Made by a program: the position numbers and the translations under genes. This document shows, piece after piece, positions 2,323 to 34,805 of a stretch of 40,479 nucleotides of DNA (position 1 is its first letter; every line of letters starts with the position of its first letter). Under the pieces are notes generated by a model that had not been told where the DNA came from, ran no database searches, and saw only the letters and a program-made list of their open reading frames with translations. Source of the DNA: Phycisphaerales bacterium (GTDB taxonomy: Bacteria; Planctomycetota; Phycisphaerae; Phycisphaerales; SM1A02); contig JAPKCC010000018.1 in the NCBI GenBank assembly GCA_028823105.1, positions 1 to 40,479 of the forward strand, given 5' to 3'.

Positions 2323-4026
2323 ATGTTTCAGCATCGAACCATCCCGACGTCGTCCCGCCAGCGTTCGCCTCAACCTCTGAGCGGCAGTCCGCCGAGACGG
2401 TCCCGATACGGCCATCGCGGGGCACTCGCTGTCGGTCTCGCCGGAATGGTGCTGACTCAAGGATGTCGGGAGGATGCCAGCCCACACACCGCCAAGCCGA
2501 ACCCCGCCAACGTCGCTTCAACTGATGACGCGGAGATGTTGGAAGGCCCCACCCTCCCGCTTGAGCCGAGCGAAGTATCGGAGGCCCCATCTTCAAGACT
2601 CGTGATCACCGGGACCACCGTGCTCACGGACTTCGCTTTGGGAGCGTCCGGGGTCTGGGAAGCGATGGTGCTCGAAGAGTCAACGGTGGTCATCCAAGAT
2701 GGTCGGGTATCCGGAATCGTCCCAGCCGCGAACTTCGTCCTTCTCCAGAACGACGTGGTGGTTACGGGTCGTGGCCGGTTCGTCATGGCCGCCCCGTTGA
2801 TCGTGGGCGGCGGCGGCCCCGCGGAGATCGGTGCGTGGTTAGAAGGCGGGCGGATGATCGATGCCCTGCTTTCCGGCATCGGCGGGGTGATCCTTCCGAA
2901 GAAGATGGTCGATTCACCCGATGGTCGTTGCCTCACCGCCCGAACCACGGATCGGGAGATCGCGGCTTCCGACCTTCTGCCCTTCACGGGTGACGCTTCG
3001 ACGCTCGCGGACGATCTCGTCTCGATCCCGACGTCGGGCCAACTGATCGACGTGTATGCATCGGTGCTGAACGATCGGATCAACGCCGGCGAAGATCACA
3101 TCGGTCTGCTCGCGGCGCTCACCCGTGCACCGGCGGCCGCCATCGGGCGTCCGAATCTGGGCGTGGTCGAAAAGGGATCACCGACCAAACTTCTGGTGCT
3201 TGATTCCAATCCCATCGACGACCCTCGTGCGGTGCTTGAACCATTCGCGGTGGTGGTCGGCGATCGAGTCCTTCGCCGAGTGGAAGTGCTCGTACTGCGA
3301 GAAGCATCCGTTCGCGGCGCGGACATGCGGCAGCAGATCGCAGCGGAACAACCCGAAGGCGAGTGGTCACCACCGCTGCGGCGTTGGTTCAACAGCACGC
3401 AGGGCCAGGTTTACGGAGGATCCGTGGCGGCCGGAGAAGGCGGTCATCAGCACTTTGCGACCCGTACCGGCCGTCCACGCTTTGACCGAACCGTTGGTTC
3501 AATCGTGACCGAGCCGGCGGAAGGATTACCGAATCTCGATCTCACATACACCGGGCCGCCAGACTCCTTCCACTTCACGACGACGCCCGATGCGGACGGA
3601 CTCCGGGTCGATCTCCAGATCGTCGACCGCCCTCGAATGACCCCGAATTCACCGGGGCCCAATGGTGTTCCGATCGTCGACCTGGCCCTTGATCTAGACG
3701 TCCGGCGTGAGGCCATGATGGCATCGACGGGCGTTTTTGAATTCGACGCCCAGGAATTGCTCTATGGCAGCGGTCCGATCGGACTCGGACCGCGGCGTTT
3801 CCGATTCACCCCGATCGACATCGAGTCTTGTCCACCATGCTTCGAAGGTTTCGAGCGGGTTTGGAATCTCGAGATCTTCGATCTTGATGCGGCGCAGCCG
3901 AAGCTCGCGGGCATCGCGACGGTCGCGTTCCGTGCGGGCGGTCCGGCACGCGTTCGTTTCGAAGTGGGGCTCGATCCGATTTGGATCGACGAATCACCGG
4001 CTGTCGGCAGGGCCCCGCTGAACTGA
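2323..4026 (+). CDS. Exported amidohydrolase-like pseudoenzyme with C-terminal beta-rich domain
   Basis: The 567-residue protein has a long basic N-terminus, then a hydrophobic segment ending LTQGC (Cys48), which suggests a signal peptide or an atypical lipobox. Residues 93-160 match the first beta-sandwich half of amidohydrolases (VITGTTVLTD, VVIQDGRVSGI, GRGRFVMAAPLI). Where active members have PGLIDxHxH, this one reads AAPLIVGGGG. Residues 264-320 match the closing half (LTRAPAAAIGRP, LGVVEKGSPTKLLVLDSNP). Only about 100 residues lie between, against roughly 300 for a normal TIM barrel, and no metal-binding His/Lys/Asp set is visible. Residues ~335-567 are an unrecognised region likely rich in beta strands with a CPPC motif. 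It is therefore unlikely to be catalytic. The last 33 bases overlap the convergent alpha/beta hydrolase gene. Confidence 0.82.
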   Translation: MFQHRTIPTSSRQRSPQPLSGSPPRRSRYGHRGALAVGLAGMVLTQGCREDASPHTAKPNPANVASTDDAEMLEGPTLPLEPSEVSEAPSSRLVITGTTVLTDFALGASGVWEAMVLEESTVVIQDGRVSGIVPAANFVLLQNDVVVTGRGRFVMAAPLIVGGGGPAEIGAWLEGGRMIDALLSGIGGVILPKKMVDSPDGRCLTARTTDREIAASDLLPFTGDASTLADDLVSIPTSGQLIDVYASVLNDRINAGEDHIGLLAALTRAPAAAIGRPNLGVVEKGSPTKLLVLDSNPIDDPRAVLEPFAVVVGDRVLRRVEVLVLREASVRGADMRQQIAAEQPEGEWSPPLRRWFNSTQGQVYGGSVAAGEGGHQHFATRTGRPRFDRTVGSIVTEPAEGLPNLDLTYTGPPDSFHFTTTPDADGLRVDLQIVDRPRMTPNSPGPNGVPIVDLALDLDVRREAMMASTGVFEFDAQELLYGSGPIGLGPRRFRFTPIDIESCPPCFEGFERVWNLEIFDLDAAQPKLAGIATVAFRAGGPARVRFEVGLDPIWIDESPAVGRAPLN

Positions 4027-4968
4027 GTTCGCGGAGGTCGAGTCGCCGTCATTTTCGTCATCCCCGTCGTTGCCATCGATCCTTCGCATGAGCCGCGTGA
4101 CGATGTCGGCGACCTCGTCGGGCTTCTCGACCATCGTCGAGTGTCCGGCATTCTCGACAATTGTCGTGTACGCCGAGGGAATCGCGGCCTGCCAGCACGC
4201 GGCGCCCGACGGATGAATGATCCGATCGTCGGCGCCCCAGATGATCTCAGTGGGACACTCGATGTCGAGGAAGCGATCTGCACTGCCGAGCATTAGATCT
4301 TCGAGATTGCGAAGAATCACTTCGTGATCTTCGGCACGAATCGCCGCTTCCGCGGCGACGATCCGCTTCATGAACCTCGGCATCCACGGTGGCCGCGTGA
4401 AGTTCAGTTTGTAGATCCGCTCGAATGACTCAGCCGAGTCCACTCGGAGCAGATGCTCATCGCGTTTCGCCGCCGCGAAAACCTCGGTATCGATCGGAGG
4501 CTCGATTCCCGCTGGCCCGATGACCACCAAGCCCGCTACGGCGGTAGGTCGGGACGCCGCGTAGCCTCCCGCGATGGCTCCGCCCATGCTGGAACCGACA
4601 AGGACGGGCGGGTTCAGTCCCAGCGTCGCGATGAGATCGTCGATCGCGGAAAGGAAGAATTCGAAGTCGATGGTCCCGGGGTCATGATCCGGGTGTAGTC
4701 CGAACCCCGGGAGGTCCGGCACCACCACGTGGTGTGCTCGCACGAGGCGCCGCGCCAACTGAAGCATGGTCAGTCCGTCGACGCCGAAACCATGAATCAA
4801 CAGGATCGGTGTTCCTTTGCCGATCGGCCCGCCCTCGAATCGAGGCCAACCCAGATCCGAGTGATGTCGAAGTCCGGTCGCTCGCGCGGCACAGGTGGCG
4901 ATGCGTCGGAGGGCACGACCTCCGAGGGTCGCGGGTTGACGATTGGGACGGTTGGCGTCGGCGTTCAT
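3994..4968 (-). CDS. Alpha/beta hydrolase
   Basis: The 324-residue protein has the alpha/beta hydrolase layout. There is an oxyanion HGFG at 59-62, the nucleophile elbow GSSMGG with Ser127, an acid in WGADDRI (probably Asp248), and the catalytic His276 in NAGHSTMVEKP. The cap region lies around 155-230. No signal peptide is evident, because the N-terminus is basic and not hydrophobic. The closest familiar relatives are carboxylesterase/C-C hydrolase type enzymes, and the substrate is unknown. The C-terminal ~35 residues after the fold are low-complexity (DGNDGDDENDGDS), and this tail is where the gene overlaps the convergent gene ending at 4026. It starts 42 bases after the amidase stop and is probably cotranscribed with it. 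Confidence 0.92.
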   Translation of the reverse strand: MNADANRPNRQPATLGGRALRRIATCAARATGLRHHSDLGWPRFEGGPIGKGTPILLIHGFGVDGLTMLQLARRLVRAHHVVVPDLPGFGLHPDHDPGTIDFEFFLSAIDDLIATLGLNPPVLVGSSMGGAIAGGYAASRPTAVAGLVVIGPAGIEPPIDTEVFAAAKRDEHLLRVDSAESFERIYKLNFTRPPWMPRFMKRIVAAEAAIRAEDHEVILRNLEDLMLGSADRFLDIECPTEIIWGADDRIIHPSGAACWQAAIPSAYTTIVENAGHSTMVEKPDEVADIVTRLMRRIDGNDGDDENDGDSTSANSVQRGPADSR

Positions 4969-5010
4969 GGCAATCCGATTCCGATCTCGGCGAGCTCGAT
5001 TTCAACGGAC

Positions 5011-6741
5011 TCAGAGCACGGGGTGCTGCGTTGCCACGTCGCACCGTCGTTCGAGCTCTCGGCCGAGCCTGCAGATCGTACCCTCGTCGAACAGTCGGCC
5101 GATCAGCGTGAAGCCATGTGGCCGTCCCTCGTCGAAGACGATCGGTTGGACGAGCGTGGGATGACCCGTCGCATTGGTGATCAGCAGGAGGTTGGCGGCG
5201 AAAGCGGGCGTGGCGAGCGCGTCGACGGTGTCCATGATTCGGGCCATGGCGTCCATCACCTGTCGGCGGACCCGATCGGCCTGCACCAACTCGATCGCCG
5301 GAATGAACCAGCTTCGGCGGAAGGTGTTCGGCCAGGCTTGCGGTGACTGCCAGACCATGGAGTCATCATCGCCCGACCGGGTCAGTGATTCGAAGGCGGC
5401 GGCGGCTTCGGCATACAACGGGATGAGCAGGGATTCGTAGGGAAGATCTGGGAGGTCGACTTCGACGAGCTCGCAGCCGGCATCGCGGAGATGTTCGATG
5501 GCCGCCCGGTCGGCGGGATTCGCGCCATCGAACCAGGCGGGATTCCAACCGACCCGGAGACCCTTGACGCCCTGGCTTGCATCGTGCGCAAAGGGAACGC
5601 CCACGCTCGACGCATCGCGGGGGTCGAGGCCGTTGATGGCCGCGAGCACAAGGGCCGTGTCGTTCACGCTTCGGCAGATCGGGCCGATCTTGTCGAGGGA
5701 CCAGCAGAGACTCATGGCGCCAGCCCGGGAGACTCGTCCGAAGGTCGGACGAAGTCCGGTGGCGCCACAGACCATTGCGGGCGAGATGATCGATCCGAGG
5801 GTTTCGGTTCCGAGCCCGAACGCCATCAGACCACCCACCGTTCCGCTGGCGCTGCCGGCGCTTGATCCGCTGGAACCCTGCTTCAGATTCCATGGGTTGT
5901 TGGTTCGTCCTCCGAACCAGATGTCACCGTAGGCCAGCGCACCGACCGAGGTTTTTCCGAGCATCACCGCCCCGGCTTCGTCGAGTTTCTCGATCACCGT
6001 GGCGGTGGTCGATCCGACTCGATCCTTGAACGGCGTCGCGCCCCAGGTCGCTCTGACGTCTGCAACATCGAGGATGTCCTTGGCACCGTAGGGAATTCCC
6101 TGAAGCGGCCCTCGATCTCGTCCCTGCTTCCGTTCCGAATCCGCTCGTCGCGCTTGTTCGATCGCCCGATCGCCGGTGACGGTGATCATGCACTCGAGTT
6201 TGGGATCGATCCGCTCGATTCGATCGAGGTAGATGCGGGTGAGTCGTTCACTGGTGAGTTCGCCTCTTCGCATCCACGTACAGAGGTCCGCGACGGTGGA
6301 GAACGCGATGGCCGCTTCGTCGTCGGGAAGCGATCCGGGATTCGCCACGACCATTTCGGGGTTTCCCGTCGAGGTCACGGGGTCGAGGGCTCGATCCGGC
6401 GGCATGGCGCGGAAGACCGTCGCGGGCGCCAGCCCGTTGGGCATCGCGCCGGCGTTGACTCTCGCGGCGAAGATCGCCATCTGCTCGCCGATCGTCCCGG
6501 CGATCGTCGCTTGTTCCTCCGGCGTGAACTTGATCCCAGCGAGGCGCTCGGCCGCCGCGATGATCGCGGGCGTGATGCTCACATCATCGGGTCCGCCCGG
6601 CCAGGCATTCGGCTCCGATTCTTCTTGCTGGTCGATGGGTCGACTTCCCTGAGCGGTCGTGGTTGCGGCCGCCAATGGCAGCACAGCGAGCGTCGCGGTG
6701 GAGATGAGGAGTCTTCGACGTTCGGGGTCGTGGTTGGTCAT
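5011..6741 (-). CDS. Amidase signature family hydrolase with Tat-like signal
   Basis: The 576-residue protein begins ERRRLLI followed by a hydrophobic stretch, a twin-arginine-type export signal. The amidase signature domain starts near residue 145. The Ser-cisSer-Lys triad is intact: Lys221 in PYGAKDIL, the cis Ser290 in QGSSGSSAG, and the nucleophile Ser317 in GTETLGSIISPA. Family members hydrolyse C-N amide bonds. The signal argues against a role as GatA of the tRNA amidotransferase. Residues ~50-140 are an N-terminal extension with a helical ITPAIIAAAERLAG segment, of a kind also seen in other exported amidases. It lies 45 bases downstream of the DUF2892 gene and 42 bases upstream of the hydrolase, in a likely minus-strand operon. 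Confidence 0.93.
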   Translation of the reverse strand: MTNHDPERRRLLISTATLAVLPLAAATTTAQGSRPIDQQEESEPNAWPGGPDDVSITPAIIAAAERLAGIKFTPEEQATIAGTIGEQMAIFAARVNAGAMPNGLAPATVFRAMPPDRALDPVTSTGNPEMVVANPGSLPDDEAAIAFSTVADLCTWMRRGELTSERLTRIYLDRIERIDPKLECMITVTGDRAIEQARRADSERKQGRDRGPLQGIPYGAKDILDVADVRATWGATPFKDRVGSTTATVIEKLDEAGAVMLGKTSVGALAYGDIWFGGRTNNPWNLKQGSSGSSAGSASGTVGGLMAFGLGTETLGSIISPAMVCGATGLRPTFGRVSRAGAMSLCWSLDKIGPICRSVNDTALVLAAINGLDPRDASSVGVPFAHDASQGVKGLRVGWNPAWFDGANPADRAAIEHLRDAGCELVEVDLPDLPYESLLIPLYAEAAAAFESLTRSGDDDSMVWQSPQAWPNTFRRSWFIPAIELVQADRVRRQVMDAMARIMDTVDALATPAFAANLLLITNATGHPTLVQPIVFDEGRPHGFTLIGRLFDEGTICRLGRELERRCDVATQHPVL

Positions 6742-6786
6742 GCCTCCAGCCTAACGCGGAGTCGGAGGGCGCCGTCTCCAAAGCAG

Positions 6787-7002
6787 TCAGACGGGCGTCT
6801 TGAAGCCCATGGCTCGTACCGCGCACCACCCGCTCCAGCCTTCGAAGACCATGAAGCCGCCGCCGATCAGCAGGGCGGCTCCGATGATGACCGGAATGCC
6901 TTCAACCCCTCCGAAGACGAGGGTCAGCGCTCCGGCAACGAGGAAGCAGAGTCCGGAGAGGAGACGAACGGCTTTGCCCTTGCCATTGATGTTGCATTGC
7001 AT
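6787..7002 (-). CDS. DUF2892-type small membrane protein
   Basis: This 71-residue protein starts MQCNINGKGKAVRLLSG, followed by two hydrophobic helices (about 17-33 and 36-54), and ends WSGWCAVRAMGFKTPV. The N-terminal C-N-x-G pattern, the double helix and the terminal C-x-x-x-x-x-G-x-K-T-P are the usual layout of the DUF2892 / YgaP-like inner-membrane domain. The function is not established. In some proteins this domain is joined to a rhodanese, but none is present here. It sits between asnS (60 bases upstream) and the amidase (45 bases downstream) on the same strand. Confidence 0.8.
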   Translation of the reverse strand: MQCNINGKGKAVRLLSGLCFLVAGALTLVFGGVEGIPVIIGAALLIGGGFMVFEGWSGWCAVRAMGFKTPV

Positions 7003-7062
7003 GAGTGGATGTCCGTTGGTTGGTTTGAGGTCAGATTCGGGGAAAGCCTGGGACTTGCCGCA

Positions 7063-8475
7063 TCAGAACTCGGCGTGACCTCGCGTGCGGGGGAACGGGA
7101 TAACGTCGCGGATGTTTGCCATGCCGGTCGCGTAGGAGACGAGTCGTTCGAAGCCGAGGCCGAAGCCGGCGTGGGGCACCGAGCCGTATCGGCGCAGGTC
7201 GCGATACCACCAGTAGTCTTCCTTCGGGAGGCCCATCTCATCGAGGCGGGCGTCAAGCACGTCGAGTCGTTCCTCCCGCTGACTTCCTCCGATGATCTCG
7301 CCGACCCCCGGCGCCAGCACATCCATCGCGGCGACGGTTTGACCATCGTCGTTCATTCGCATGTAGAACGCCTTGATGTCCTTGGGGTAGTTCATGAGCA
7401 CGACGGGCTTTCCGATGATTTCCTCGGTCAGATACCGCTCGTGCTCGCTCTGCAGATCCGTACCCCAGGACACGGGGAATTCGAACTTCTTCCCCTTTGC
7501 GATCGCCGATTCCAACGCCTTGATCGCGTCGCTGTAGTCCATGCGTTCGAACGGACTATCCACGAAGTTCTCAAGGCGAGCGATGCAGGTCGGTTCGACC
7601 CGTTCGTTGAAGAACGCGAGGTCGTCGCCGCGGCGATCGAGGAGCGTTCGGAAGCAGTGCTTCAGGAGTCCCTCGGCGAGATCCGCATCGTCGGCAAGAT
7701 CCGCGAATGCGATTTCCGGCTCGATCATCCAGAACTCGGCGAGATGCCGGGTGGTGTTGCTGTTCTCGGCTCGAAAGGTGGGGCCGAACGTATAGACCTT
7801 CGAGAGGGCGAGGCACCAGCACTCGGCGGCGAGTTGTCCGGAGACTGTCAGGTGCGACTCCCGACCAAAGAAGTCCTGAGAGAAGTCGATGGCGCCAGCT
7901 TCATCGCGAGGGATATTTTCAAGGTCGAGGGTCGAGACGCGGAACATCTCGCCCGCGCCTTCGCAGTCGTTGGCCGTGATGATGGGCGTGTGGATCCACT
8001 GGAAGCCGTCCTGTTGGAAGAACTCGTGGATCGCCATGGCAAGGCAGTTCCGAACTCGGGCGACGGCACCGAAGGTGTTGGTTCGGGGCCGGAGGTGCGC
8101 GACCTCGCGGAGGTATTCAAAACTGTGTTGCTTGGGCGAGATGGGATAGGTATCGGGATCCTCGACGAATCCAATCGCCGTGATCCGGGTCGCCTTGATC
8201 TCGATCGCCTGGCCCTTGCCGCGGCTCTCGACCACGTCGCCTTCGATTTCGACCGACGAGCCCGAAGTGAGCCTCAAGACGTCAGATTCGTAGTTCTCGA
8301 GATCCCCGGGAGCGACGACCTGCATGGTCGCAAAGCAGGAGCCGTCGGAGACCTGGAGAAAACTCAATCCGCCCTTGGAGTCTCGGCGGGTTCGAATCCA
8401 GCCCTGGAGCCGTACGGACTTCCCCAGTTGGCTTTCCGGGTTGGTGAGGAGTTGAGCGATGGAGTTGGCGGGCAT
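7063..8475 (-). CDS. asnS: Asparaginyl-tRNA synthetase
   Basis: The 470-residue class IIb synthetase charges tRNA-Asn with asparagine. The N-terminal OB-fold anticodon-binding domain covers about 1-110 ([20 protein letters not shown]). Motif 2 contains [21 protein letters not shown], and motif 3 contains [12 protein letters not shown] near the C-terminus. The open frame extends 106 codons further upstream to 8793, but that part is low-complexity and Pro/Arg-rich. The ATG at 8475 gives the expected N-terminus ([10 protein letters not shown]) and normal family length, so it is chosen. A separate AsnRS means Asn-tRNA need not be made by transamidation, although an indirect route elsewhere is not excluded. 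The gene heads the minus-strand run that continues into DUF2892, amidase and hydrolase. Confidence 0.97.
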
Positions 8476-8884
8476 GACCGGAGGCGTTCCTAGCAGGGGT
8501 GATTTCAGTGCCTTTGGTGGCCTGAACGAACCAGTGGACGGGACATTGGTCGGGCGGGGACACTGTCTGGCAGCCCGGAAGAATGGCAAGGTATGCGGAA
8601 GCGGCCTCGGCTGGCGAAAATCAGGTTGCGGAGCGTGCCAGTTTGGCAGCGATCGACCCGGTCTTCCGACCGGTTGGGCATCTCGGCAGATCGAGAAACC
8701 GGTTGGGCCTGGCTCGGGAGAATCCCCGCTCGGATCCGGTGATCGACGGGAATCGCCTTTCCGGGCACGAATGGGGCCGGTAGAGCGATCCACGAACTCG
8801 ATCGCTCAGGATCTCTCCAAGGGGATCGGCTCGGGCCTCCGCGGTGTCGGTTCGGCACGCCGGTTGTTCCCTCTTGAGCACGTC
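8476..8884. other. Divergent intergenic region between asnS and the receiver gene
   Basis: No convincing gene was seen in these 409 bases. An 11-base direct repeat ACCGGTTGGGC occurs at 8669-8679 and 8698-8708. The first copy also forms a small hairpin, CCGGT (8658-8662) with ACCGG (8669-8673). Promoters for both flanking genes must lie here or inside the neighbouring genes, but no clear -35/-10 pair stands out. Confidence 0.4.
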
Positions 8885-12599: not shown

Positions 12600-13748
12600 T
12601 CACTTGTTACCCATCACATCTCGGCCGAAGAGACCGTCGGTGGTGAGGACGTGATAGCTGGTGTTCACCAGAGTGTCGTACGCGTATTCGCCGTAGTAGC
12701 CGTCAGCACCCCATTGCGTGTCGCGACTCCACAACCCGGTCTGGCACTCGCCGGCGGTGGTCGACTGGCAGAAGTTGCAGCTGTTGTTGGCCTCGGCCAT
12801 CACTTGGGCCCGGGTGTCGCCTTCCATCGCGTCGCTGACACCGATCATCGCAACATGTCCGTCGAAGAAGAGCGTGATCGGCGCCGAGTTGTAGCCCTGA
12901 TTGAACATCCAACTCGGATCATCGCCCTCCGAAAATCCGGGGTTGGATCCGGTCTCGGTGTTCTGGAGCCAATGATGTTCGATCATCCTCGTCTTGAGAT
13001 CCGGGTATCGGCACTGGCCGGCGGCGGGTGACCTGAACGCAGCAGGCATCGATCGGGGATTGCGCCAACCACAGTGACTGTGGACTTCCGGATTGAACAT
13101 CGCCGAGCCGCTCCAGACGTAGCTCGACCAGACGATCTTCGGGTTGTTCGGGTCCAGATAGAACTCACTGGGTTGTTCGAAGAAGGGTTCGACCGCCTCG
13201 AGTGCGTAGCTGTCCTTCGGGGCCCAGAACACCGGGTCGTAGAAGCGGGAGCCGACGTAGGCGTTGAATGCCTTGCCGTTGGGTGTCCGGAATCCGCCGA
13301 ACTTGTAGATCGGAACGTTGTAGGAGATCGGCTGGTAGATCGTGTGGAAGAAGATGCTCCACGCGAGTGGGTCACCGTCATACGCCGGACACAGGTCTCC
13401 CCCGCACCAGGCGGCCCAGATGTCTCCGTTCTGATCAGTCCCGGCAATCGCCTGCGCCATGCAGGCCACGGTGCTGTTGTAGAGGACGGGATCCGCATTC
13501 GCCACCAGCCCGAGGTCATCAGGTACGGCGGTGAACTGGCGGCCACCCCAGTCGGCGCCGTAGGTGTCGTTGGCGATGCCGAGATTTCGGAGATTGGCGG
13601 ACGACTGGGTCACTCGGGCCGAATCGCGAGCCTTGCCGATGGCGGGCAGAAGGATGGCGATCAGCAGGGCGATGATGGATATCACCACCAAGAGTTCCAC
13701 AATGGTGAAACCGAGCGATCGAGATCTGGAGGATTCGGGGGTCGGCAT
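12600..13748 (-). CDS. Large prepilin-like protein, copy 2 of a tandem pair
   Basis: The 382-residue protein has a short basic leader ending at Gly13, then [20 protein letters not shown], the type IV prepilin cleavage/methylation helix with Glu at position +5. [25 protein letters not shown] then continues the N-terminal stalk. Such proteins are cut by prepilin peptidase and inserted into pseudopilus or envelope structures. The ~330-residue globular part is far larger than a classical pilin. It contains a DGHV motif ([10 protein letters not shown]) resembling the C-terminal signature of large planctomycete prepilin-like proteins, with Tyr in place of the usual His nine residues before the Asp-Gly. 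The region [15 protein letters not shown] carries three Cys. It is closely related to the protein encoded at 14067-15209. Confidence 0.9.
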
Positions 13749-14066: not shown

Positions 14067-15209
14067 TCACTTCGCGCCGAACACATCACGGCCAAGAAGG
14101 CCATCGGTCGTGAGGATGACGGCGCTGGTGTCGACCAGTGTGTCATAGCTCAGGTTGCCGTAGTAACCGTTCGCACCCTTGGTGGTGTCACGGCTCCAGA
14201 GACCGGTCTGACAGTCACCATTGCCTTCGCAATTGTCGCAGACGTTATTGCGTTCGGCCTGGATCATGGCACGAGTATCGCCTTCCATGAAGTCGGTCGT
14301 ACCGATCATGCCGACGTGACCGTCGAAGAATGCAGTCATGGGCTTCGAGTTGTAGCCATGGTTAAACAGCCAGCTGGGGTCGCTACCACCGAATGACGGG
14401 TTGGCATCGGTCTCGACGTTCTGAAGCCAGTGATGCTCCATCATGCGGACCTTGAGATCCGGGAATCGACACTGGCCGATCGAAGGACTTCGGAATGCAC
14501 CGGGGAAGTTGTTGCCGTAGGGGCTCTTGTAGCCGCAGTGGCTGAGGACTTCCGGCGACCACATCGCTGCGGGGCTCCAGATGTAACTGGAGTACGCAAT
14601 CACCTGACTCCCGGAGTTCTCGGGGCTGTAAGGGTTGAACTCATCGGGGTAGTTGAAGAACGGCTCCGCAATTCGCAGCGGATACGTGTCCTTCGGAGCC
14701 CAGAACACCGGGTCGTACCAGCGGTCGCCGACGTAACTGGCGAAAGCCTTGGCGGTGGGAACGCGGAACGAGCCGAAGTCGCCACCATTGAAGCCGTAGG
14801 GCTGGAAGACGTAGTAGAAGCAGCCGTTCCAGTATCCGGGATCACCGGGGTAGCCGTTGCAGAGGTCGCCAGCACACCACCAGCCCCAGAGGCGTCCGAG
14901 GTAGTCGTAGCCGACCAACTGCTGCGGCATGCAGGCGATTTGATTGTTGTAGTCGACGGGACCGAGTCCGTTCGCGAACCCAAGACCCATGTCGTCGGGA
15001 ATCGCGGTGAACTGACGATCACCCCAGTCCGCGCCATACGTATCGTTGGCCACAGAGAGGTTTCGAAGGTTCGCGGCAGACTGTGTGACGCGTGCGGCGT
15101 CTCGAGCCTTGCCGATGGCCGGCAGCAGAATGGCAATGAGCAGCGCGATGATCGAAATCACCACCAGCAGCTCGACAATAGTGAAGCCTGGACGATTCTT
15201 TTGCTTCAT
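14067..15209 (-). CDS. Large prepilin-like protein, copy 1 of a tandem pair
   Basis: With the ATG at 15209 the product has 380 residues, starting MKQKNRPG then [20 protein letters not shown], a canonical prepilin leader and hydrophobic helix with Glu at +5. GGAG at 15219-15222 supports this start over an upstream in-frame ATG at 15371. The globular domain matches copy 2 along its whole length. Shared blocks include [53 protein letters not shown] and LTTDGL.GRDV. Its C-terminal region also has a [15 protein letters not shown] Cys cluster. The protein is likely exported to the envelope after prepilin peptidase processing, and its role is unknown. Its own terminator lies downstream. Confidence 0.92.
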
Positions 15210-31383: not shown

Positions 31384-32480
31384 TTCGCTCAATTCGCTTA
31401 ATTCGCTTGAACCGCCTCGCCTTTCCATTCGCCATCGCGTTCTGCGCGTCTGTCACCCTAAGCGTTGCGGCGCAGCAAGAATGCGGGCCGGAACTTCCAC
31501 CCTGCGACGAACCACACGGCGAGCCCGGGTGCCTCCAGCCCGGATGCTGCGAGCTCGTCTGCGAGACGGACCTCTTCTGTTGCGAAGTCTCGTGGGATGA
31601 AACGTGCGTCGAACAGGCCGTTGAGCTCTGTGGTGACATCGCGTGCCCGAATCTGGGGGAATGCCTTGCGGTTCACGACACGCCGGGATGTCTCGACGAG
31701 GCTTGCTGCGAACTGGTTCGACTGCACGATCCCTTTTGCGGCTACGGAACATGGGATTCGATCTGCGTTGCCGAAGCGGCCGGCTGGTGCGGAGCGACGC
31801 TCGAGTGTCCAATCGAACCACCGACCGCCGCGATTCCGGAGGCTGAAGCATGTCTCGACCGCATCAACGACGGATGCTCGCAGAACGCCATCGAGGCGGT
31901 GTCATCGATCCTCCACTGCGGCGATCAAATCTACGGCAAGACCACCACGACCGTGCCCCGCGACGTCGATTGGTATCGGCTTCCGTCGACCACCGATGGC
32001 ATTTGGACGGCGACGCTCTCCACGGAATTTCCCGCGAGGTTGCTTCTGGTGACCGGCGATTGCGAAGGACCGATTCGCACCGTCGATGAACATCACGTCG
32101 ACCCCTGTACTTCGGACGACTGGTCTTTCATCCTGCCCGAAGGTGAGTGGTATCTCGTCGTCGAAGCGGGTGTGTCGGATCGACCGCTTCGCTCGGGCCT
32201 TCCGTGCGACGAGATCGACCCGAAGAATCCGCCGGGCGATGACGAGGAGCCGCTTCCTCGAGAGTACGGTCTCCACTACCTCCTTCAGGTCGACTGCAAT
32301 GCCGTCGATTGCGTGGCTGATCTGAACGGCGACGGCAGCATCGACGGGCAGGATCTCGGTCTGCTCTTCGTGGCCTGGGGCGCCTGTCCGGACGCATGCC
32401 CCGCGGATCTCGACGGAAACGCCGTGGTCGACGGGCAGGATCTCGGTTTGCTCTTCGTCGCGTGGGGCTCCTGCCCCTGA
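31380..32480 (+). CDS. Secreted Cys-rich repeat protein with double dockerin-like tail
   Basis: The 366-residue protein starts at the ATG overlapping the previous stop. Residues 1-31 form a signal peptide. Two Cys-rich repeats lie at ~41-84 and ~95-137, each with the order C-L-x-x-x-C-C-E-L-V, then a D-x-F-C block, then W-D-x-x-C-V, E-A and W/L-C, so several disulphides are expected. Residues ~155-300 look like a beta-sandwich of the bacterial pre-peptidase C-terminal kind (DVDWYRLPSTTDGIWTATLS, GEWYLVVEAGVSDRP). Residues 311-366 are two EF-hands, DLNGDGSIDGQDLGLLFVAW and DLDGNAVVDGQDLGLLFVAW, that end the protein. No catalytic motif was recognised. A surface or matrix role is inferred. Confidence 0.87.
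   Translation: MIRSIRLIRLNRLAFPFAIAFCASVTLSVAAQQECGPELPPCDEPHGEPGCLQPGCCELVCETDLFCCEVSWDETCVEQAVELCGDIACPNLGECLAVHDTPGCLDEACCELVRLHDPFCGYGTWDSICVAEAAGWCGATLECPIEPPTAAIPEAEACLDRINDGCSQNAIEAVSSILHCGDQIYGKTTTTVPRDVDWYRLPSTTDGIWTATLSTEFPARLLLVTGDCEGPIRTVDEHHVDPCTSDDWSFILPEGEWYLVVEAGVSDRPLRSGLPCDEIDPKNPPGDDEEPLPREYGLHYLLQVDCNAVDCVADLNGDGSIDGQDLGLLFVAWGACPDACPADLDGNAVVDGQDLGLLFVAWGSCP
31383..31409 (+). repeat. In-frame 9-bp triplication in a signal peptide
   Basis: ATTCGCTCA, ATTCGCTTA and ATTCGCTTG follow one another directly after the start codon and encode I-R-S, I-R-L, I-R-L. They set up the positively charged n-region of the signal peptide. Replication slippage is the likely origin. Confidence 0.85.
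32341..32476 (+). repeat. Duplicated EF-hand coding segment
   Basis: Segments 32341-32389 and 32428-32476 (offset 87 bp) differ at only five positions over 49 bases and encode the D-G-Q-D-L-G-L-L-F-V-A-W-G part of each EF-hand. The near-identity indicates recent internal duplication or gene conversion. Confidence 0.85.
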
Positions 32481-32631: not shown

Positions 32632-33690
32632 GTGTGTACATCCGTGCGATTCAGCCTCCATCTTGCGGTGATGTGCCCCGCCGTCGTGATGACGTCGAGC
32701 CTCGGGTGCGCCGAGGAATTCCTTCTGCTTCCTGGGTCGAGTTTCTACCGCGGCGAACTCGAGGCAGACGTTCCTTTGGAGGGCGTCTTCGTCGGGGACT
32801 TTGACCCACAGACCAATCCGCTTGGCACCGAGACCCGACCACCATCATCCAAGCGAGGCAATGTCCCAATTCCAATGTTCGGGTCACTCTTGCTCGCGGG
32901 CTCGTTTGATAGCCTTCAACCCTCCGGGTGGATCGACGCGGACTGGGATCTCGCCACCGCTTCGATGGTGATCCATGCGTTCGACATCGATCTCGGCGCG
33001 AGCGAGCTCCGACCGGTGCCGCTCGACCAGTCGATCGATGGTGTTTCCTCGCCGTTCGTCACCGTCCGGCCGGATGGAATGTTCCCCACGGGAATCTCCG
33101 GGCCGATTGTCCTTCGCGATGCGGATGTTCTCTCCATGAGATTTCATTCGGAAGAGCCGGTTCCGGCGGATCTCCTCTCCGTGACCGATGAGATCTGGGC
33201 GGTCTTTGCGAGCATCGACGGAAGGCTGGAGATCAAGTTTGATACGGAAGTGGGCATCGTCACCAGAACCGCGTCAGTTTCTCTTCCTACCAACGGGGTT
33301 CTCTTCCTCGATCAGGGGCCTCGGCTTGAGCTCGGTTTCTTCTCGTCGTTGGGGGAGGGGAACGACGCGGGCTCGTTCCCAGCTTTGGAACTGCCATTCA
33401 GCATCGACACCGGGAAGGATGCGGAAGATGCAGATCTGATCTTCTCGGGGACGGGTCAAGACCCCGGTTTCGATCTCTTCATCGATCTAGGCATCGCGTC
33501 GGTCGCAGGCCCGCTGCCCGATCCGGACCTCGACGGCGACGGCCGCGTGGATGCCGTCGATCTCGGCCTCGTGCTGCTGGAGTGGGACCGTACCGGACCA
33601 CACCCCGCGGATCTCGATCGCAATGGTCGGGTCGGTTCTGGCGATCTCGCGAGGTTGCTGGTCGCCTGGTCGCCCGAAAGCGATGACTAG
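32632..33690 (+). CDS. Secreted beta-rich protein with dockerin-like tail, paralogue A
   Basis: The 352-residue protein starts at GTG 32632 with GGGAG seven bases upstream. A signal peptide spans ~1-27 (VMCPAVVMTSSLGCA). The body shares with the next gene a block G-x-F-V-G-D-F-D ... N-P-x-G-T-x-T-R-P, then LQPSGWIDADWDLATASMVIHAFDIDL in shortened form, and an overall beta-strand pattern (SMRFHSEEPV, RLELGFFSSLG). The C-terminus at ~297-347 has two EF-hands (DLDGDGRVDAVDLGLVLLEW and DLDRNGRVGSGDLARLLVAW). No known family was recognised. Together with its neighbour it looks like a tandem duplicate with strong divergence. Confidence 0.8.
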   Translation: MCTSVRFSLHLAVMCPAVVMTSSLGCAEEFLLLPGSSFYRGELEADVPLEGVFVGDFDPQTNPLGTETRPPSSKRGNVPIPMFGSLLLAGSFDSLQPSGWIDADWDLATASMVIHAFDIDLGASELRPVPLDQSIDGVSSPFVTVRPDGMFPTGISGPIVLRDADVLSMRFHSEEPVPADLLSVTDEIWAVFASIDGRLEIKFDTEVGIVTRTASVSLPTNGVLFLDQGPRLELGFFSSLGEGNDAGSFPALELPFSIDTGKDAEDADLIFSGTGQDPGFDLFIDLGIASVAGPLPDPDLDGDGRVDAVDLGLVLLEWDRTGPHPADLDRNGRVGSGDLARLLVAWSPESDD

Positions 33691-33755
33691 GGCGATGATT
33701 TTGGTATTCGGTTGAATTCGCCTCGGAATTGCCCACAATGTCCGTGGAGAATCTC

Positions 33756-34805
33756 ATGCCAGTTATGACCCCTGCCAGCCGTTGCTCGCTGTTTCTCGCC
33801 TTGACGATCCCGATCGCGGGTTGGGCGGTCGCGGACGACTTCACCGTCGAGTCGAAGGAGAGTTCCTTCAATCAGACGTACTCGATCTCAATTCCCTTTG
33901 CGGGAACACTGATCGGCGACTATGACGAGAAGTCCAATCCGGAAGGCACCCAGACGCGACCTGGCCTCTTCGGGGGAAGCGGAAACAATCCGATCGACTA
34001 CTCGGCGACGTTTCAACTCTCGTCGGCAGGGCAGGAGTTTCAACCTTCCGGCTTGATTGACGCGGACTTGTCGGCGATCCAGAACGGGTCACTCACCATC
34101 GATGCTTTTCAGATCGATGTGCTGGCGGGCGCGACCACGACGGTGTCGGTCGATCTGGTGATGATCTACCAGACGTTCAGAACCTACAGCCCATTCTCCC
34201 TCTATCCCGGCGGATTCGAAATCCCGATTCCACTGCAGGAGGGGACGGTCACTCAAATGGTGCTCTCTTCGGCGGTGCCAACGGCGATCGGTGTGAAGGA
34301 GAGCCGGGACGGCTTCACATTCATCGCGAATCTCCCCGGAGTACTCAGCTGGGAAGCGGACTTCGGTACGGGCCCAGTGCCCTTCGAACTCCCGGTCTTG
34401 CTGCCGGTCGAGGGCGAAGTGATCATCGGGGCCGAGCAATCCCGCCTCGAGATGTCCAGTGTGTTCTCAGCGTCTGGCGAGCAGCCCGCGGACTTTCCGC
34501 CGTTCGGACCGATCCCGCTCTCTCTTCCGACCCTTCCGCCCGGAGAGCAACTGGCCAACCTGTTGCTCAGTGGCACGATTGAGTCCTTCGCCTCTGATCT
34601 CGATCTCTCGATGCTCATCGTCGCCTTCGCGGATCTGGCGTGGAGCCCCGCGGACTTCAATCACGACGGCGCCGTGAATGGCGCCGACCTTGGGCTGTTG
34701 ATCGGAGCCTGGGGTTTGTGCGAAGGGTGTCCGGAAGACATCAATGATGATGGTCTGGTCAACGGTGCGGACCTCGGGCTTCTCTTCGGTGATTGGACTG
34801 GTTGA
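33756..34805 (+). CDS. Secreted beta-rich protein with dockerin-like tail, paralogue B
   Basis: With the ATG at 33756, preceded by GGAG at 33745-33748, the product has 349 residues. The signal peptide is clear (MPVMTPASRCSLFLALTIPI, cleavage after AVA). Earlier in-frame starts (33729 TTG, 33738 ATG) lack a good ribosome binding site. The shared block reads FAGTLIGDYD ... NPEGTQTRPG ... FQPSGLIDADL ... LTIDAFQIDVLAG, matching paralogue A. The middle is beta-rich with no catalytic motif. Two EF-hands end the protein (DFNHDGAVNGADLGLLIGAW and DINDDGLVNGADLGLLFGDW). Such a signature fits an extracellular or surface-attached protein whose tail binds calcium. The function is unknown. Confidence 0.82.
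   Translation: MPVMTPASRCSLFLALTIPIAGWAVADDFTVESKESSFNQTYSISIPFAGTLIGDYDEKSNPEGTQTRPGLFGGSGNNPIDYSATFQLSSAGQEFQPSGLIDADLSAIQNGSLTIDAFQIDVLAGATTTVSVDLVMIYQTFRTYSPFSLYPGGFEIPIPLQEGTVTQMVLSSAVPTAIGVKESRDGFTFIANLPGVLSWEADFGTGPVPFELPVLLPVEGEVIIGAEQSRLEMSSVFSASGEQPADFPPFGPIPLSLPTLPPGEQLANLLLSGTIESFASDLDLSMLIVAFADLAWSPADFNHDGAVNGADLGLLIGAWGLCEGCPEDINDDGLVNGADLGLLFGDWTG

Follow-up and report, generated by a model that had tools for sequence, protein, structure and literature searches.

We find that a 567-codon open reading frame (ORF) in a Phycisphaerales contig of 40,479 nucleotides (hereafter the window, meaning the whole stretch analysed) encodes a member of the amidohydrolase lineage whose catalytic barrel has collapsed. 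Both halves of the β-sandwich are retained, the metal site is lost, and a C-terminal β domain follows the second half. The protein belongs to a conserved family with two gene contexts, a stronger result than the preliminary description of this sequence had offered. A literature search by listings, limited to open-licence papers, returned no earlier description of such a family.

Most pseudo-enzymes lose residues within an otherwise retained fold. In this protein, it is the fold that has been reduced, and the sandwich, usually seen as an accessory part, survives in several genera without a closed barrel. The family thereby provides a natural test of whether the amidohydrolase β-sandwich can fold and serve without its barrel. 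Moreover, a protein that has no active site can end up annotated as an "amidohydrolase" on flank matches alone. The parts of the gene and its neighbours are listed in Table 1. The ORF is the single match in its own genome (3.35 Mb, completeness 97.1%) and lies close to the end of its 40 kb contig.

Table 1. Coordinates in the window of the barrel-collapsed gene, its parts and the adjacent genes.
Feature	Position	Strand	Evidence
Barrel-collapsed amidohydrolase-like protein gene, 567 aa	2323..4026	+	ORF, alignment, genome search
Residues 1-90: signal-like stretch to Gly-Cys, then fast-evolving linker; putative lipoprotein anchor	2323..2592	+	Alignment (by eye), dN/dS
Residues 91-157: amidohydrolase β-sandwich, N-terminal flank	2593..2793	+	Profile, predicted structure
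Residues 158-168, PLIVGGGGPAE: position of HxH in enzymes	2794..2826	+	Sequence, alignment
Residues 169-266: collapsed barrel, modelled as helices and two strands	2827..3120	+	Model, landmark distances
Residues 267-336: β-sandwich, C-terminal flank	3121..3330	+	Profile, alignments
Residues 339-567: C-terminal β domain, ~230 aa	3337..4023	+	Alignment, dN/dS, model
Codons 503-506, C-P-P-C, invariant in ten g1 + g49 orthologues	3829..3840	+	Alignment
Penicillin acylase (PF01804, E 2.3e-146), divergent neighbour, reaches contig end	1..2268	-	Pfam, conserved synteny
α/β hydrolase, convergent; 3' end overlaps ORF 2323-4026 by 33 bp	3994..4968	-	ORF list, Pfam, synteny
Amidase-signature enzyme (PF01425), next neighbour	5011..6741	-	Pfam, synteny

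Amidohydrolase flanks around a collapsed barrel

By its N-terminal part, the protein is a member of the amidohydrolase lineage. Compared with solved structures, a profile of ten orthologues matches molinate hydrolase (4wgx, E 4.5e-4) and a prolidase (2p9b, 8.6e-4). On 4wgx, profile positions 112-154 align with residues 22-63 (N-flank, 5.6 bits) and positions 243-296 with residues 374-428 (C-flank, 13.4 bits), both in the right order and with just one stretch of -1.6 bits in between, which sets ~310 enzyme residues opposite ~88 profile positions. An AlphaFold2 model (480 residues, ten sequences, mean pLDDT 71.7; block pLDDT 70-95 in model residues 1-230) superposes on molinate hydrolase with Z 19.1 and rmsd 2.9 over 231 residues, and all 50 structural matches listed (Z 14.8-19.1) carry titles of amidohydrolase-type enzymes. 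Profile and predicted structure thus both place a composite β-sandwich, built from N- and C-terminal segments, in this protein, and the two sandwich halves named in the preliminary description are borne out. The tail of the C-terminal flank (P-x-A-x-V ... E-x-L-V) is common to most members in the alignment. Ordered profile matches and the model Z of 19 rule out a chance resemblance to amidohydrolases. With Pfam, the window protein stays below the gathering cut-off for PF01979 (Amidohydro_1; E 0.073, 12.7 bits against 25) and is not among the PF01979 matches of its own genome at E ≤ 0.01. Divergent members fare better: among 16 members, nine match PF01979 at E ≤ 10 (best 1.2e-7) and four match PF07969 (best 2e-10).

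Between fixed landmarks, the barrel region measures 112 residues here versus 271-326 in 20 full-length rows, a range that omits three of the 23 such rows (L020_5091, L090, L115), whose double or overlong matches make distances meaningless. Eighteen barrel-less sequences have 84-113 residues between these landmarks, and one outlier (G050, row L038) has 188, including an Ala-rich insert. The earlier estimate of a barrel shortened to about 100 residues is therefore close to the measured value. After the HxH position and before the C-flank, the model contains two strands (E101-105 and E130-134) and several helices instead of the (β/α)8 barrel of the amidohydrolase superfamily. Structure prediction, proposed earlier as a check, accordingly gave no full TIM barrel, and the metal motif is absent.

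That motif is given in PMC4407906 as H-x-H-x83-140-K-x25-70-H-x18-25-H-x52-143-D. Since its minimum span is 185 residues, it cannot fit into the 112 that are left. A scan with K or E allowed at the K position found it in none of the 19 barrel-less sequences, whereas 18 of 24 comparison rows, not all of them independent, contain it (14 if K alone is accepted); the other six rows are a one-match ORF, an HxH-only row, and four full-length proteins without HxH. The ligand set of the enzymes (HxH...K/E...H...H...D) is thus missing from the protein. Further, no histidine column is invariant among the ten orthologues; an HxH at residue 375 in the C-terminal domain of the window protein is not conserved in them, and one in the C-terminal domain of L084 stands alone. 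The preliminary description had HxH replaced by a Gly-rich loop. The loss of HxH is conserved and GGGG is present here (162-165), whereas neither the sister genus nor the distant members retain these glycines. Metal catalysis of the amidohydrolase type is almost certainly absent. Loss of the metal site excludes ordinary amidohydrolase chemistry; an activity of another kind may reside in the C-terminal domain.

The same sandwich flanks occur in molinate hydrolase (4wgx, 4ub9) and phenylurea hydrolase B (4whb), the best matches by both profile and structure. As described in PMC4407906, molinate hydrolase has six strands without an 8-stranded barrel and keeps K240, H282, H302, and D373 with one metal. 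Its six strands are a precedent for barrel reduction and in this respect weaken our finding. However, its active-site residues lie in 4ub9 95-404, for which the profile alignment gives no significant counterpart, one stretch at 163-204 reaching -1.8 bits. In these molinate and phenylurea hydrolase chains of 461-496 residues, the C-flank match stops at most ~40 residues from the chain end, which leaves no room for an added domain of 230 aa.

Prolidase/carboxypeptidase-type amidohydrolases (2p9b, 3mtw, 3feq) share the flanks with Z 18.1-19.0 over 208-230 residues; they have a full barrel and a metal site and are not known to carry an added domain. Two CRMPs (4b3z, 4b90) are among the Foldseek matches of the model. 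CRMPs are non-enzymatic amidohydrolase relatives in which the scaffold is reused non-catalytically, yet their barrel is complete, whereas it is collapsed here. Within the same bacterial family, four amidohydrolase relatives (L020:3757-5115, L096, L098, L099) also lack HxH but, unlike the window protein, have full-length barrel regions (279-307 residues between landmarks). L096, L098, and L099 come from other genera of this family, in which the metal site can thus also be lost with the barrel intact in length. In L020 (G000:C59), two genes are adjacent on the minus strand: 3757-5115, encoding the full-length 453-aa protein without HxH, and 5091-8849, encoding 1253 aa with two amidohydrolase units.

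Distribution, selection, and descent

The gene is present in all eight genomes examined of g1, the genus of the window, while none of 33 other relatives from the same draw matches the protein. With a profile that includes divergent members, the barrel-less architecture is found in 21 of 181 genomes and 6 of 45 genera of the taxonomic family: eight genomes in g1, five in g14, three in g49, two each in g7 and g38, and one in g39. The cut-off of this census was set at E ≤ 1e-12 because an earlier, narrower profile at E ≤ 0.01 drew short C-flank matches; it hit 101 of 151 family genomes, and the extras listed were mostly such stretches. In a class-wide draw at E ≤ 1e-8, with at most four candidates scored per genome, 17 of 397 genomes match. 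Six of these are known members and give the sole near-full matches, nine show a pair of widely separated matches, the pattern of full-length enzymes, and two (G399, G185) have a single match only. The related records are metagenome-assembled genomes (MAGs) labelled mostly Phycisphaerales, Phycisphaera, or Phycisphaerae, with single cases of Planctomycetia, Planctomycetaceae, and Hyphomonas. A contig numbered 122603 (81,665 bases) appears in records L048 and L049 as Phycisphaerae (MED708) and as Hyphomonas sp. TMED17; by the agreement in number and size alone, the latter label looks wrong. One MAG (G003) carries the locus twice, on two contigs with equal scores (L043, L044), probably as an assembly duplicate.

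The shortened form is kept under purifying selection, as measured within g1. In eight close pairs of this genus, residues 91-330 have a dN/dS (Nei-Gojobori) of 0.14-0.20, and the C-terminal domain has the lowest of all parts, 0.09-0.15. The barrel remnant alone gives 0.13-0.34 and the linker (residues 1-90) 0.34-0.87. In three pairs at greater distance (between g1 clades, within g49, and between g1 and g49, one each; dS ~0.8-1.4), the two folded parts show 0.24-0.49 and the barrel remnant 0.34-1.0. The search for orthologues that had been suggested thus returned the same deletion, with folded parts under purifying selection (0.09-0.20 in g1).

A barrel-less ORF could also arise through decay of an enzyme gene or through an error of assembly, and one distant copy (G114) is indeed split over three frames. 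However, the full-length match is uninterrupted in 19 of the 21 genomes, and the remaining copy (G060) is only cut by a contig end. The low dN/dS of the folded parts in close pairs and a deletion common to lineages at 17-23% identity (alignment of 16) likewise speak against decay, and the several separately deposited MAGs that carry the gene speak against an artefact. On conservation, retained synteny, dN/dS, and separate MAGs, we reject both explanations, which have only a negligible chance of being right. The alternative that the barrel was lost several times independently and the family is convergent carries more weight and is still unlikely. It would accord with the maximum-likelihood tree of the flanks (IQ-TREE, 36 rows), where both g38 sequences lie elsewhere, and with the C-terminal domains of three groups (g39 left out), between which hhalign on thin profiles finds no link (probabilities 0.3, 2.9, and 13.5%). 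In contrast, the same tree joins the 16 g1/g49 and g7/g14 sequences at UFBoot 99, and 17 together with g39 at UFBoot 78, and FastTree unites all 19 barrel-less sequences (support 0.56); the flanks had been aligned with a profile of barrel-less members, a procedure that favours their grouping. Moreover, the N-terminal parts of g1/g49 and g7/g14 align in hhalign over 212 columns (E 1.2e-13), through the shared deletion and the tail behind the sandwich, and g38, g39, g7, and g14 have the same next gene. Seven of 43 rows were omitted before tree building: the similar two-unit proteins L090, L091, and L093, L020_5091 (two units), L020_3757 (no HxH), L114 (one match), and L088 (same gene as L113).

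Two gene neighbourhoods

In g1 and g49, the barrel-less gene is flanked by a divergent acylase and a convergent α/β hydrolase, followed by the amidase. All four genes are found in each of the ten g1/g49 loci with enough context (nine genomes, the window apart), the amidase being cut in one, and in G060 the acylase is seen before the contig ends. In nine of ten genomes of g7, g14, g38, and g39, the gene is instead followed directly, on the same strand, by one encoding a Gly-rich LTxxQ-like protein; in the tenth (G073), the contig stops ~450 bases behind the barrel-less gene. By eye, this neighbour protein has a motif resembling LTxxQ; its EF-hand matches stay below threshold. Its copies, such as L102:7079-8854, L066:10259-12154, and L106:10355-11983, are Gly/Arg-rich and helical, and Pfam assigns them no family above cut-off. 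In several loci, the gene precedes CysE- and aconitase-like genes, as named by eye.

Of 181 family genomes, 178 contain a match to a profile of the LTxxQ-like neighbour, although some weaker matches are probably paralogues. Among 20 such loci, the barrel-less gene is present in one (G020, already counted) and absent from 18, which include two g1 genomes and one g49 genome; the remaining locus (L188) ends ~110 bases upstream and is uninformative. The barrel-less gene thus probably either moved once between the two places or was gained twice.

The C-terminal domain and a putative envelope role

In nine of ten orthologues, the hydrophobic N-terminal stretch ends in Gly-Cys (alignment, by eye); L007 has no cysteine at this position. 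The strict lipobox consensus, scored by eye, is matched in one of the ten. The protein is probably exported, and possibly membrane-anchored. Of the earlier proposal of export, the hydrophobic stretch with Gly-Cys stands, while a strict lipobox holds for a single orthologue.

The C-terminal domain was described before as an unrecognised domain of ~230 residues, and residues ~339-567 do lack a convincing match in NCBIfam, Pfam, and PDB sequences. NCBIfam gives no match for the window protein, Pfam gives nothing beyond amidohydrolase models and single weak matches (best 0.089) on ten orthologues or 16 members, and a PDB sequence search with the domain yields matches at E 0.94 and worse. A known module thus does not emerge from these searches, of which NCBIfam covered the window protein. 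In the modelled domain (mean pLDDT 64.5), two short helices separate two sets of six strands. Foldseek finds nothing for it at E ≤ 0.001. Structure comparison puts teneurin on top (6.9), with 2h1t (DUF1089, Z 6.6) and 2in5 (YmcC, 5.6), and lower down 3buu (LolA superfamily, 4.8) and 6ntr (DUF1849/EipB, 4.7), with unrelated proteins in between; all of these lie below Z 8, the noise limit of the comparison. The order of strands, two middle helices, and strands is faintly like the half-barrels of LolA, LolB, and EipB, with no significant match. A LolA/EipB-like half-barrel is therefore a tentative lead from the model, and the weakest step of our best explanation. EipB has been likened to LolA/LolB and is required for envelope integrity, according to PMC10787603. 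Class-wide, a profile of the g1/g49 domain matches strongly in three of 397 genomes, all g1, and weakly in eight more (E 0.005-0.08 over 26-73 positions), which we take as chance; the g7/g14 profile matches two of 298, both known members.

We think it quite likely that the protein serves in binding or as a scaffold. On balance, we favour an exported, possibly membrane-anchored, non-catalytic envelope protein of the amidohydrolase lineage that would bind a putative ligand or partner. The collapsed barrel and the absent metal motif support what had been called a non-enzymatic, perhaps binding, protein, a role that we infer. The sandwich and the barrel remnant would form a rigid platform, and the C-terminal β domain would do the work of binding, in the periplasm, a ligand or partner for which a hydrophobic ligand or an envelope protein are candidates. 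The LTxxQ-like neighbour in four genera, with its sub-threshold EF-hand matches, points to envelope work. In g1, the neighbours are enzymes (penicillin acylase, α/β hydrolase, and amidase), which fits an accessory of hydrolases equally well. A more detailed scenario, which we regard as rather doubtful in its entirety, is that a single event removed at least five barrel strands together with the entire metal site from an amidohydrolase, after which the sandwich became the stand for a LolA/EipB-like, lipid- or protein-binding envelope domain kept in two alternative neighbourhoods.

Two other functions have to be weighed against this envelope-binding role. Activity could have moved to the C-terminal domain, where CPPC, with or without C203, could be a redox or metal-binding site. 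C203, C503, and C506 are the only cysteines invariant across the ten orthologues, and dN/dS is lowest in this domain. On the other hand, these cysteines are confined to g1/g49: the alignment of 16 fills their columns in seven rows, all from these two genera, and leaves the other four genera empty, so that they cannot underlie an activity of the whole family. The cysteines may also form structural disulphides, and we judge such an enzyme distinctly unlikely. An accessory of the divergent penicillin acylase, be it activator, inhibitor, or anchor, appears improbable as well, although all eight g1 genomes (window included) and all three g49 genomes show the divergent pair, a contig end cutting one of the latter. 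This pairing does not extend to the ten loci examined in g7, g14, g38, and g39, where no acylase match lies around the gene. Moreover, 73 of the 181 family genomes have an acylase match at E ≤ 1e-60, and 56 of these 73 lack the barrel-less gene; outside g1/g49, the acylase matches have 34-45% identity and may be paralogues.

Elsewhere in the window, two tandem genes on the minus strand (12603-13748 and 14070-15209) encode prepilin-like proteins with similar N-terminal helices (by eye), a type that is common in planctomycetes. A second tandem pair (32644-33687 and 33738-34802) encodes look-alike proteins of ~350 aa with signal-like starts and is preceded by the gene for a Cys-rich protein (31407-32477), both as judged by eye.
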